Translations under genes and position numbers: made by a program
Shown: in pieces, positions 4,351 through 32,784 of the stretch
How positions within the stretch are numbered: the first letter of the stretch is position 1
Layout of the letters: every line of letters starts with the position of its first letter
Notes under the pieces: generated by a model
What the model saw: only the letters and a program-made list of their open reading frames with translations
What the model was told of the DNA's origin: nothing
Database searches by the model: none
DNA from: Oscillibacter sp. ER4
GTDB taxonomy: Bacteria > Bacillota > Clostridia > Oscillospirales > Oscillospiraceae
Direction of reading: 5' to 3'
Assembly: GCF_000765235.1 (NCBI RefSeq)
Contig: NZ_JPJG01000062.1
Span: 1-34,508, forward strand
DNA length: 34,508 nt

Positions 4351-4684
4351 TAAAAGGCGTCGCAGACTTTCACCCGCAAGGGGTATGCGGCATCCGTAAA
4401 GCAGCAAAGCTGCTAACGGCTGCCCAAGCGTCCGCAGACGCGAAATGATCTTAATCGTAAATTCCGACGTCACCGTCGCGGCATTACGATTCCCGCGCCC
4501 GTTCGGGCGCGCCAATCGTGCCACTTCCTCGAAACCGGCTCGCTTCATCCGCCACTGGCGGCGCTTCGCCGATTTCCATGTGCGTCAGAAAAAACGCCTC
4601 TCAGCCCGCAAACGTGCGCGCCTTCGGCGCGTGCGCTGCCGCGGGCTGCAATCCCCCTCAAAAAGCGGCTCTGCCGCTTTTTTT
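4351..4684 (-). repeat. Structured dispersed element, copy A (most complete)
   Basis: Read on the minus strand from the HAD stop codon, it contains a terminator hairpin, a stem of GCAGCCCGC type (4641-4648 with 4602-4609) around an inner hairpin, an arm ending in GACGCAC, a central module (about 4470-4582) with GC hairpins, a GCGTC/GACGC hairpin (4428-4432 with 4437-4441), and a distal module with AGCAGC/GCTGCT. The central part matches copy C at nearly every base over about 110 bp. The distal part matches copy B. See copies B and C for covariation. Confidence 0.85.
4659..4684 (-). terminator. Terminator of the HAD hydrolase gene, start of element A
   Basis: AGCGGC/GCCGCT stem with flanking A and T runs (about 4660-4669 with 4673-4682), 4 bp after the HAD stop codon. 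Confidence 0.8.
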
Positions 4685-20423: not shown

Positions 20424-20722
20424 ACAAAAAAAGCCTCCGTCTCTTCCCTTGAAGAGACGAAAGCTCAAAACTTCCGCGGTACCACTCTTGTTGGCATAAA
20501 ATATGCCCGCTTTCTGCATCGGCTTAAAATCAAGCGAATGCGCCTCGTTGGTAACGGTGAGGAGATCCGGCTGCGCCTAAACGAAAATCGTCTCAGCGGA
20601 GCTACTCAGGGGCCAGTGACATCATCCCGCTCTGCATTGCCTCGCAGCGACCGGCAACTCTCTGAAGCGTCTGTAGGACGAATTTTTCCCCGTCACGGTA
20701 TTTGTGAACTATGAGATTTAAT
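20424..20722 (-). promoter_or_regulatory. T-box riboswitch, leucine type, of the leu operon
   Basis: A tRNA-sensing leader of about 300 nt. The conserved T-box core reads GAGTGGTACCGCGGAAG on the minus strand (20487-20471). The AG-bulge and distal loop features appear as AGAGAG, GGTCGCTGCGAGG (about 20664-20635). A GGGG (20691-20688) pairs with CCCC at the foot of stem I and leaves CUG (20616-20614) as the probable specifier, a leucine codon followed by a purine. UGGU in the antiterminator matches a tRNA ending ACCA, as leucine tRNAs do. A terminator follows at 20432-20465. Uncharged tRNA-Leu would allow leuACDB transcription. Confidence 0.92.
20426..20465 (-). terminator. T-box-controlled terminator
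   Basis: Fifteen-bp stem (20465-20451 with 20446-20432, including G-U pairs), 4-nt loop, then seven T on the minus strand. Its 5' side competes with the antiterminator. Confidence 0.9.
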
Positions 20723-24350: not shown

Positions 24351-24580
24351 GATAAAAGCCTCGCAGAGTTTCTGCCCGCAAGGGGCACGCGACATCCGTA
24401 GAGCAGCAGAGCTGCTAACGGCTGTCCAGACGCCCGCAGGCGTGAAAAAATGTGAGATCGTTATTTCCGACGACAAGTGCGTCGGAAATAACACCGCTCG
24501 CTCCGCAAACGTGCGAGCGATAGCGAGTGCGCTGCAGCGGAGTGCAGCCTTCTCAAAAAACAGCGTTTGCTGTTTTTTGA
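24351..24580 (-). repeat. Structured dispersed element, copy B (central module missing)
   Basis: Lies between hpt and ftsH, read on the minus strand. It has the terminator hairpin, a stem CTCCGC/GCGGAG (24501-24506 with 24537-24542) at the same place as stem GCCCGC/GCGGGC in copy A and GGCCGC/GCGGCC in copy C, a perfect 13-bp hairpin (24460-24472 with 24480-24492) at the point where A and C carry their central module, a hairpin ACGCC/GGCGT (24430-24434 with 24439-24443), and the distal module shared with A. Confidence 0.85.
24554..24579 (-). terminator. Terminator of hpt, start of element B
   Basis: Eleven-bp arms (24554-24564 and 24569-24579) around a 4-nt loop, ending in TTTTTT on the minus strand, just after the hpt stop codon. 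It should reduce readthrough into ftsH. Confidence 0.8.
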
Positions 24581-30821: not shown

Positions 30822-32483
30822 TTGGCTGAACAGTTAAAAATCATCCCCCTCGGCGGTCTCAATGAGATCGGCAAGAATATGACCGTTTACGAATACGGCG
30901 GCGAGATCATCGTGGTCGACTGCGGCATGGCCTTCCCCGGCGACGACATGTACGGCATCGACTGCGTCATCCCCGACGTGAGCTATCTTGTCAAGCACAA
31001 GAACCGCATCCGCGGCATGTTCATCACCCACGGGCACGAGGACCACATCGGCGCCGTGCCCTACATCCTCAAAAAGGTGAATATTCCCATCTACTGCACG
31101 CGCCTGACCGCGGGCCTCATCCGCTTAAAGCTCGAAGAGCACGGCCTTCTCAAATCGACGAAGATCGTCACAGTGGAAAGCGGCATGACCGTCAAGGCCG
31201 GCAAGTTCAGCGTGGAGTTCATCCACGTGAACCACTCCATCGCGGACTCTGTCGCGTTTGCCATCCACACAGGACTTGGCACCGTTGTCCACACGGGCGA
31301 CTTCAAGATCGACTCGACGCCCATCGACGGCGAGGTCATCGACCTTGCCCGCTTCGGCGAGCTTGGCAAGCAGGGCGTTTTGGCGCTGCTCGCGGATTCG
31401 ACGAACGTTGAGCGCCCAGGCTACACGATGAGCGAGCGCACGGTGGGCAGGACCTTCAACCGCCTGTTCCAGAGCTGCAAGCAGCGCATCATCGTCACGA
31501 CGTTCGCCTCCAACGTCCACCGCATTCAGCAGATCATGGACGCCGCGGCGGAGTGCGGGCGCAAGGTCGCCGTCACGGGCCGCAGCATGGAAAACGTGAC
31601 AAAGGTCGCCATGGACCTCGGCTACATGAAGCCGCCGAAAAACACCGTGGTCGACATCAACAAGATCAAGTCGATGCCGCTGGAAAAGCAGGTCATCGTC
31701 ACCACCGGCTCGCAGGGCGAGGAGATGTCCGCCCTGTACCGGATGGCATTTTCCCAGCACAAGCAGATCGAGGTCGGCCCCGGCGACCGCGTCATCATCT
31801 CGGCGAGCGCCATCCCCGGCAACGAGAACACCGTCTCGCGTGTCATCAACGAGCTCTTCCGCAAGGGCGTTGAGGTCATCTACGACCGCGCGGACATGCT
31901 GCACGTTTCGGGCCATGCGTGCCAGGAGGAGCTCAAGATCATCCACGCGCTGACAAAGCCCAAGTATTTCATCCCCGTGCACGGCGAGCAGCGCATGCTC
32001 CAGCTGCACAAGGATCTCGCTCTCCAGATGGGCATGGACCGCAAGAATATTGTGATTTGCGACAACGGCGACGCCGTCGAGATCGGCGCGCGCTCGATGA
32101 AGTGCGTGCCCGGTTATGCGCCCGCGGGCGAGGTGTTTGTCGACGGCTACGGCGTCGGCGACGTCGGCGCGGTCGTGCTGCGCGACCGCAAGCATCTCGC
32201 CGAGGACGGCATGGTCGTCGTCGTGCTGCCCATCTCCGCGCAGAACGGCGACCTTCTGGCCGAGCCGGAGATCATCACGCGCGGCTTCATCTACGTCAAG
32301 GATTCCGAGGAGCTGCTGCAGGACCTCAGAAACCTCACGATGTCCACGGCGGAGGCCTACCGCGGCAAGCGCGGGCGCGACCTGAACGAACTCAAGGGCG
32401 CGATCCGCAGCGCGGTGAGCAACTATCTTTTTAAGGCGACGAAGAGAAGCCCGATGGTTTTACCGGTTATCACGAAACTTTAA
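30822..32483 (+). CDS. rnj: Ribonuclease J
   Basis: A 553-residue metallo-beta-lactamase/beta-CASP RNase with 5'-exonuclease and endonuclease activity in mRNA decay and rRNA maturation. The zinc motif HGHEDHIGA is at residues 70-78, with NHSIADSVAFAIHTGLGTVVHTGDFK and the C-terminal HVSGHACQEELK and PVHGE metal motifs. The start is TTG at 30822, with AAGGAG (30805-30810) 11 bp upstream; no ATG serves better. Only one RNase J gene is seen, so J1 or J2 cannot be assigned. It is monocistronic, ended by a strong terminator. Confidence 0.95.
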   Translation: MAEQLKIIPLGGLNEIGKNMTVYEYGGEIIVVDCGMAFPGDDMYGIDCVIPDVSYLVKHKNRIRGMFITHGHEDHIGAVPYILKKVNIPIYCTRLTAGLIRLKLEEHGLLKSTKIVTVESGMTVKAGKFSVEFIHVNHSIADSVAFAIHTGLGTVVHTGDFKIDSTPIDGEVIDLARFGELGKQGVLALLADSTNVERPGYTMSERTVGRTFNRLFQSCKQRIIVTTFASNVHRIQQIMDAAAECGRKVAVTGRSMENVTKVAMDLGYMKPPKNTVVDINKIKSMPLEKQVIVTTGSQGEEMSALYRMAFSQHKQIEVGPGDRVIISASAIPGNENTVSRVINELFRKGVEVIYDRADMLHVSGHACQEELKIIHALTKPKYFIPVHGEQRMLQLHKDLALQMGMDRKNIVICDNGDAVEIGARSMKCVPGYAPAGEVFVDGYGVGDVGAVVLRDRKHLAEDGMVVVVLPISAQNGDLLAEPEIITRGFIYVKDSEELLQDLRNLTMSTAEAYRGKRGRDLNELKGAIRSAVSNYLFKATKRSPMVLPVITKL

Positions 32484-32516
32484 AACAAAGGAGCGGCTTT
32501 GCCGCTCCTTTGTTTT
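32482..32516 (+). terminator. Terminator of rnj, start of element C
   Basis: Perfect 16-bp arms (32482-32497 and 32501-32516) around a TTT loop, ending in TTTT. Confidence 0.9.
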
Positions 32517-32784
32517 AATTGGGGGCTTGCAGGCCGCTGCGCGCATAAAACGCCCGCCATTGGCGGGCGTTTTCCACACTTGCGGCCTGAAAAGTGTAAA
32601 TTGTCACGCACATGGAAATCGGCGAAGCGCCGCCAGTGGCGGATGAAGCGAGCCGGTTTCGAGGAAGTGGCACGATTGGCGCGCCCGAAAGGGCGCGGGA
32701 GTCGTAATGCCACGACGGTGACGTCAGAAAAAACGATTCAAATTTATTTCGCGTCTGCGGACGCGAAAGTTTGCGACGCTTTTG
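32482..32784 (+). repeat. Structured dispersed element, copy C (distal module missing)
   Basis: Plus-strand copy after rnj. It shows stem CAGGCCGC/GCGGCCTG (32530-32537 with 32582-32589) around an inner 12-bp hairpin (32547-32558 with 32562-32573), the central module (about 32611-32722) nearly identical to copy A including a CGCGCCC/GGGCGCG hairpin with GAAA loop, and hairpin GCGTC/GACGC (32751-32755 with 32760-32764). It lacks the AGCAGC/GCTGCT part found in A and B. Confidence 0.85.

Follow-up and report, generated by a model that had tools for sequence, protein, structure and literature searches.

A hairpin-array repeat behind genes of Oscillospiraceae and relatives: a probable MITE that targets hairpins

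Introduction

The closest described systems are IS1272 and TnSha1, members of the IS1182 family from staphylococci. In the parts of the two papers considered here, their target is a hairpin, often a terminator, with no sequence consensus, and the ends of IS1272 are 16 bp long (PMC5678879, PMC4923244). The same parts describe the hairpin as deleted or replaced upon insertion and report no duplication of it (PMC5678879, PMC4923244); duplication of the whole hairpin is drawn as possible pathway (b) in PMC5678879. For IS1182-type transposases in general, the portion of PMC12056078 considered describes targets that are duplicated, deleted, or neither, and the recognition of either a sequence or a DNA structure.

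The element studied here has the transposase family, through its partner insertion sequence, and the hairpin target in common with IS1272 and TnSha1. In contrast to both, it often lies between two whole hairpins and reads as a MITE, while theirs are autonomous elements in the parts of the papers considered. It also departs from the account of the IS1182 family in PMC12056078, whose considered portion gives neither a MITE nor the hairpin-length duplication rule proposed here. Hairpin targeting by IS1182 and IS1272 is already known, and target duplication within the IS1182 family is not itself new; the hairpin-array MITE and the duplication of whole hairpins of varying length are new here. ISfinder gives repeats of 0-60 bp for IS1182. 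Among the matches listed from open-licence PMC papers, there is no IS1182 MITE and there are no data on whole-hairpin duplication.

Other repeat families resemble the element in part. The BOX elements of Streptococcus pneumoniae are modular A-B-C intergenic repeats with stem-loops; the present element is likewise modular but belongs to a different lineage, and the two are likened by description alone. REP/BIME palindromes with RAYT are extragenic palindromic mosaics, whereas the genome that carries the present element has no match to a Y1 transposase. The IS1202 family leaves long target duplications of about 24-29 bp. Its insertion sequences have a chosen target, dif/pdif sites, in the portion of PMC10132070 considered; here, unlike there, the duplication, at 17-64 nt, tracks the hairpin in length, and the candidate transposase is of the IS1182 type.

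Structure of the element

The window is the whole analysed stretch of 34,508 nucleotides from Oscillibacter sp. ER4 (contig NZ_JPJG01000062.1). The initial annotation placed three copies of a structured element in it, A (4351-4684), B (24351-24580), and C (32482-32784), and all three are found there, directly 3' of HAD, hpt, and rnj and on the strand of these genes. The genes encode a HAD hydrolase (PF08282), a phosphoribosyltransferase (PF00156), and RNase J (PF22505 and PF17770), respectively. The paired base changes that had been listed for one stem, here S1, and for a second hairpin, here H3, are also borne out by the sequence (Table 1).

The element is about 200-330 nt long, contains no transposase gene, and is overlapped by mechanical ORFs only. 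Along the direction of the upstream gene, it comprises T, S1, H2, H3, and a tail mini-hairpin. T is a terminator-like hairpin that is frequently flanked by TCAAAAA...TTTTTGA, and in copy A it begins with CTTCAAAAAAAG, resembling the inner half of the left terminal repeat. S1 is a long stem that encloses a variable inner hairpin, and H2 is a stem of ~13 bp with a loop mostly of the CRCATGT type. The loop of H3 is TGCG in 82 of 104 copies, and the tail follows the pattern NNN-TGC-NNN. Some copies are extended by modules: the H2 loop can contain M2 (107 nt) or a different insert, and the 3' arm of H3 can contain M4 (56 nt). The element is regarded as modular because blastn matches usually end at the same breakpoints.

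Table 1. Parts of the three window copies, with positions in the window
Copy	Feature	Position	Strand	Basis
A	T, terminator-like hairpin right after the HAD stop codon	4657..4688	-	sequence
A	S1 stem with inner hairpin (GCCCGC/GCGGGC)	4602..4649	-	sequence
A	H2, left arm	4583..4595	-	sequence
A	Module M2 within the H2 loop	4470..4576	-	sequence, genome matches
A	H2, right arm, not complementary to the left arm of A	4457..4469	-	sequence
A	H3 hairpin (GCGTC/GACGC), loop TGCG	4428..4445	-	sequence
A	Module M4, inserted into the 3' arm of H3	4372..4427	-	sequence
A	End of H3 and tail mini-hairpin GTC-TGC-GAC	4357..4371	-	sequence
B	T hairpin 3' of hpt	24553..24580	-	sequence
B	S1 (CTCCGC/GCGGAG)	24499..24545	-	sequence
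B	H2, intact, stem 13 bp, loop CACTTGT	24460..24492	-	sequence
B	H3 (ACGCC/GGCGT)	24430..24450	-	sequence
B	Module M4	24374..24429	-	sequence
B	Tail CTC-TGC-GAG	24360..24368	-	sequence
C	T hairpin at the stop codon of rnj	32482..32516	+	sequence
C	S1 with inner hairpin (GGCCGC/GCGGCC)	32529..32589	+	sequence
C	H2, left arm	32596..32608	+	sequence
C	Module M2	32615..32721	+	sequence, genome matches
C	H2, right arm, exact complement of the left arm of A	32722..32734	+	sequence
C	H3 (GCGTC/GACGC) without M4	32747..32768	+	sequence
C	Tail	32769..32777	+	sequence

Copy number and distribution

Copy A as blastn query gives 43 matches in its own genome, itself included (E<=1e-3; 2.73 Mb in 130 contigs). 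A covariance model of H2, H3, and tail, named R1, finds at least 57 matches there, a lower bound with 150 of 686 candidates scored. The proposal of a repeat family had hinged on further copies in the genome, and these exist; the repeat is also widespread in the family. R1 matches occur in 17 of 18 genomes of the genus and in 158 of 300 family genomes from 70 of 106 family genera (E<=1e-6), and in a draw across the order they occur in 41 of 394 genomes, 26 from the same family and 15 from four others; these genome counts are lower bounds, part of the candidates having been scored. Flavonifractor sp. An10 has at least 86 matches, Pseudoflavonifractor sp. An44 at least 49, and P. phocaeensis An507 at least 19. 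Oscillibacter valericigenes and Clostridiales bacterium CCNA10 have two weak matches each, and R1 has no match among the candidates scored in Chakrabartyella, Desulfosporosinus, and Acetobacterium, three of the eight named genomes reached via transposase loci.

Flanking hairpins, ends, and empty sites

Copies A, B, and C have no flanking direct repeats, the longest matches between their flanks being 9, 10, and 7 nt. A wider set of 105 copies was obtained from 118 H2-like candidates filtered by loop pattern and parsed without the covariance model; copies whose H2 loop carries a long insert, such as A and C, fall outside it. Direct repeats of at least 18 nt flank 13 of the 105 copies, compared with 0 of 315 mismatched flank pairs. 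All 13 are among the 63 copies from other genomes (same genus included), versus none of the 42 own-genome copies. Every one of these repeats contains a hairpin, which spans at least 80% of the repeat in 11. In An10, where 40 of the 86 copies found were fetched, repeats flank 13 of the 40 (control 1/117) and a hairpin spans 10 of the 13. The exceptions are L337, where a second element supplies the repeat with its T hairpin, and L327 and L346, which have no plain hairpins.

The ends of the element lie inside the repeats and are of the CAGNCTGTC(A/G)AAAAAG type, with variation. By eye, TGTC stands beside the left repeat in 13 of 17 copies inspected and GACA beside the right repeat in 9. A strict end pattern is present on the left in 8 and on the right in 10 of the 63 copies from other genomes; the figures for the 42 own copies are 0 and 2. 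Because neither A, B, and C nor the 42 own copies carry a duplication, and strict ends are scarce, the mobility of the window copies is argued from their kin.

The flanking hairpins mostly resemble each other in direct orientation. Among 39 scored pairs, 31 are nearer to direct repeats, five are nearer to reverse complements (L114, L139, L256, L273, and L285), and three are symmetric, while mismatched MITE flank pairs are equally alike in 1 of 200. Reverse-complement flanks are also seen by eye at L324 and L338 of An10 and at L175. Such flanks could stem from attack on a folded hairpin or from later inversion of one loop. At L256, L273, L324, and L338, the two flanking hairpins can be loop-wise reverse complements.

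The regions downstream of the rnj and HAD orthologues were located by tblastn. Among the rnj loci of the genus, 15 of 16 are readable 3' of the gene; the element is present in the own genome (copy C) and at L175, and 13 loci are without it. Among 17 HAD loci, the element is confined to that of the own genome, one of the others being readable for only 49 nt. At L175, a reversed element lies between two hairpins in the series CCTGACAC...GTGTCAGG. L178 has a single hairpin, CCTGACACGACGTGTCAGG, followed by what is by eye the same downstream DNA as at L175. The two loci read as one clear case of an empty and a filled orthologous site, across two species and not within one.

The IS1182-type insertion sequence

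The own genome holds an insertion sequence (L198), which was found by PF13751. Its transposase matches NF033551 (IS1182) at 393.8 bits (cut-off 270) and comprises the domains PF13751, PF05598, and PF01609. The insertion sequence ends in CAGTCTGTCAAAAAAG and CAGTCTGTCGAGGAACCC and sits between two copies of the 29-nt hairpin AGAGGGGGAAAGATTTCCTTTCCCCCTCT, a palindromic target as in the IS1182 family. Ends of the CAGNCTGTC(A/G)AAAAAG type are common to the insertion sequence and the element, and no counterpart of the core hairpins of the element is seen in the insertion sequence.

Related transposase loci numbered 80 from the named genomes; 11 with short flanks or partial matches and 2 dropped by the script were set aside, and the remaining 67 with L198 make up the 68 tested. 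Repeats of at least 17 nt (range 17-64 nt) flank 43 of these 68 loci, while the mismatch control gives 0 of 203; the loci lack independence, as Chakrabartyella supplies 9 and CCNA10 supplies 5 of them. An inverted repeat spans at least 80% of the repeat at 41 of the 43, and 39 have the end motif on both sides. No such repeat is found at 25 of the 68 loci, and 19 of the 25 carry the left end motif. The transposase is present in 12 of 300 family genomes (E<=1e-80), versus 158 for the MITE. The MITE is found in each of these 12 as well (P=0.00037, without correction for kinship). A second PF13751 group in G091 (L199 and L203) has different ends, of the GGRGCTGTTGACAAAG type, and no hairpin repeat by eye.

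Covariation of the stems

In nine insert-free copies, 96.0% of 224 cells are paired and 16 of 25 pairs show double changes. Their covariation score is 0.622, compared with 0.175 for shuffled alignments, and it is reached by none of 500 shuffles; controls with a slid structure score 0.098-0.148. None of the cells in these nine copies has a one-sided (wobble) change. Covariation had been proposed from three copies, and it persists in the larger alignment.

In the larger set of 105 copies, cells were tallied for H2, H3, and the tail. Positions 3-12 of H2 comprise 997 Watson-Crick, 13 GT, 7 AC, and 33 other cells out of 1050, H3 comprises 923, 9, 4, and 9 out of 945, and the tail comprises 229, 7, 6, and 10, respectively. 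A control of 11 tRNAs from the same loci has 21 GT and no AC in 250 cells, though it is small and ARAGORN itself expects G-U. The exception is position 2 of H2, where a left A stands opposite T (53/105) or C (46/105). Read on the opposite strand, the A-C combination becomes a wobble pair, and it is the sole hint of RNA. If the element acted as RNA, G-U pairs should be acceptable on the RNA strand, yet G-T is rare, so a structure of DNA or of both strands fits. What is conserved in the co-varying stems is most likely a DNA structure, whether as a cruciform, a single-strand hairpin, or through repair that corrects one arm by the other, and not an RNA. Covariation in a dispersed repeat is by itself no proof of RNA, a caution that applies here, where wobble pairs are rare.

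Rfam at gathering score places no family on the element in the window. A search by E-value over eight loci gives none that fits the element, with one tRNA above the cut-off and 13 sub-threshold matches judged to be chance. The initial annotation had called the element a structured RNA or a hairpin repeat family; the second term stands, while the first is disfavoured by the lack of an Rfam fit, the position after a terminator-like hairpin, and the few G-T pairs. Elsewhere in the window, a T-box leader (RF00230, 102.3 bits) at 20450-20705 on the minus strand is the single Rfam match at gathering score.

Position relative to genes and terminators

A codon-position test classifies 96 of the 105 copies and calls all four window genes tested correctly. 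By this bias, the upstream gene is on the strand of the element in 82 of 96 copies, 28 of which face a convergent gene; 12 copies have genes on both sides that point in the direction opposite to the element, and 2 lie between divergent genes. Orientation by the longest open stretch (upstream + in 23/40 own and 12/50 other copies) was dropped in favour of this test, since antisense frames stay open in G+C-rich DNA.

The distance from the stop codon to H2, with values above 250 nt excluded, differs between classes of copies. Copies with a duplication have 138-199 nt (10/10), occupied by the host terminator and then T. Among copies without a duplication in other genomes, 24 of 30 have 81-108 nt and 6 have at least 130 nt. 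In the own genome, the distance is below 130 nt in 32 of 35 copies and at least 130 nt in 3. In this short state, in own and other genomes alike, T follows the stop codon. It fits either replacement of the terminator, as in IS1272, or a subsequent disappearance of the first hairpin together with the outer ends. For the own copies, loss or a settled class is tentatively favoured because right ends are rare there. The copies with duplications do not show the hairpin replacement of IS1272; the own copies resemble it, but mostly without a right end.

Interpretation and alternatives

The element is best read as a MITE that targets hairpins, often with duplication of the whole hairpin, and an IS1182-type transposase is its probable mover; judged from sequence, this reading has a probability of about 0.86. 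Terminal repeats in some copies, hairpin duplications, the empty site, and the partner insertion sequence argue for mobile DNA and not a structured RNA. As its target the element would use a hairpin, in most cases the terminator of a gene, which may be recognised in its folded form. Insertion by the IS1182-type transposase would in many cases leave the element between two whole copies of the hairpin, with a duplication as long as the hairpin. The window copies may have arisen likewise and then replaced the host terminator or lost their outer ends and duplication, and their own T hairpin would now act as the terminator. For common gut bacteria, this reading would give a formerly anonymous intergenic repeat a mobile nature, a candidate transposase, and a clear rule for its target, and dozens of natural insertions would show what a transposase does with a folded target.

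A broader proposal, for and against which the odds are about even, is that, in Oscillospiraceae and relatives, a subgroup of IS1182 selects targets for their DNA shape and joins at both feet of an extruded hairpin, whereby the duplication equals the hairpin (17-64 nt). The reverse-complement second hairpin of some insertions would then be the trace of a folded intermediate. The MITEs, themselves built as rows of DNA hairpins, would also offer places for further modules to insert, and old copies would have taken over as gene terminators.

The most serious alternative, compatible with an origin as a MITE, is a domesticated 3'-end device, in which former MITEs are kept as terminators or as barriers for mRNA or supercoiling. 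It is possible but doubtful. The own copies have 393 of 420 H2 cells (positions 3-12) in Watson-Crick pairs, lack duplications and mostly right ends, and place H2 close behind the stop codon with T between. However, these 42 copies were picked for a paired H2, which makes the kept pairing partly a matter of sample selection, and H2 pairing is lost in A and C. A structured RNA conserved behind genes, as a 3' UTR element or small RNA, is improbable. Strong covariation, the prevailing orientation with the upstream gene, conserved loops (mostly CRCATGT and TGCG), and H2 position 2, which is U-A or U-G on the opposite strand, would suit it. The location 3' of a terminator-like hairpin, the scarcity of G-T pairs apart from that position, the terminal repeats of some copies, the duplications and empty site, and the missing Rfam match do not.

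Terminators could have been doubled by another process, such as recombination or the terminators of convergent genes, with the element between them by chance, and the reverse-complementary flanking pairs, unlike a simple duplication, lean this way. The identical pattern with fixed ends around the autonomous insertion sequence at 43 of 68 loci, and the empty and filled rnj sites, make this very unlikely. The element is also extragenic, palindromic, and dispersed, as expected of palindromes of the REP/RAYT type, with a Y1 (HUH) transposase as their mover. This origin is scarcely credible, as PF01797 (Y1 transposase) is unmatched in the own genome (a draft 97.99% complete) and hairpin duplications are present, which are not known from Y1 elements.

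Modules and exchange between copies

The window copies of the probable MITE differ in their modules: A has M2 and M4, B has M4, and C has M2. H2 is mispaired within A and within C, both of which have the 107-nt M2 in the H2 loop. As the left H2 arm of A is exactly complementary to the right H2 arm of C, the sequences suggest an exchange between copies via M2. M2 has nine matches in the own genome, by reading six in H2 loops and three elsewhere, and within the genus it is matched in 11 of 18 genomes. In one of the genomes (G007), M2 lies ~10 nt upstream of H2 on the opposite strand. At positions 953-1068 of L020, two model matches overlap on opposite strands, apparently two elements arranged tail to tail. 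M4 additionally forms part of another conserved repeat, ~200 nt long, which occurs at least nine times (L024-L031), mostly with the motifs GCGCGGCGGAGCCGCG and CTTGTAGAAGTGC.
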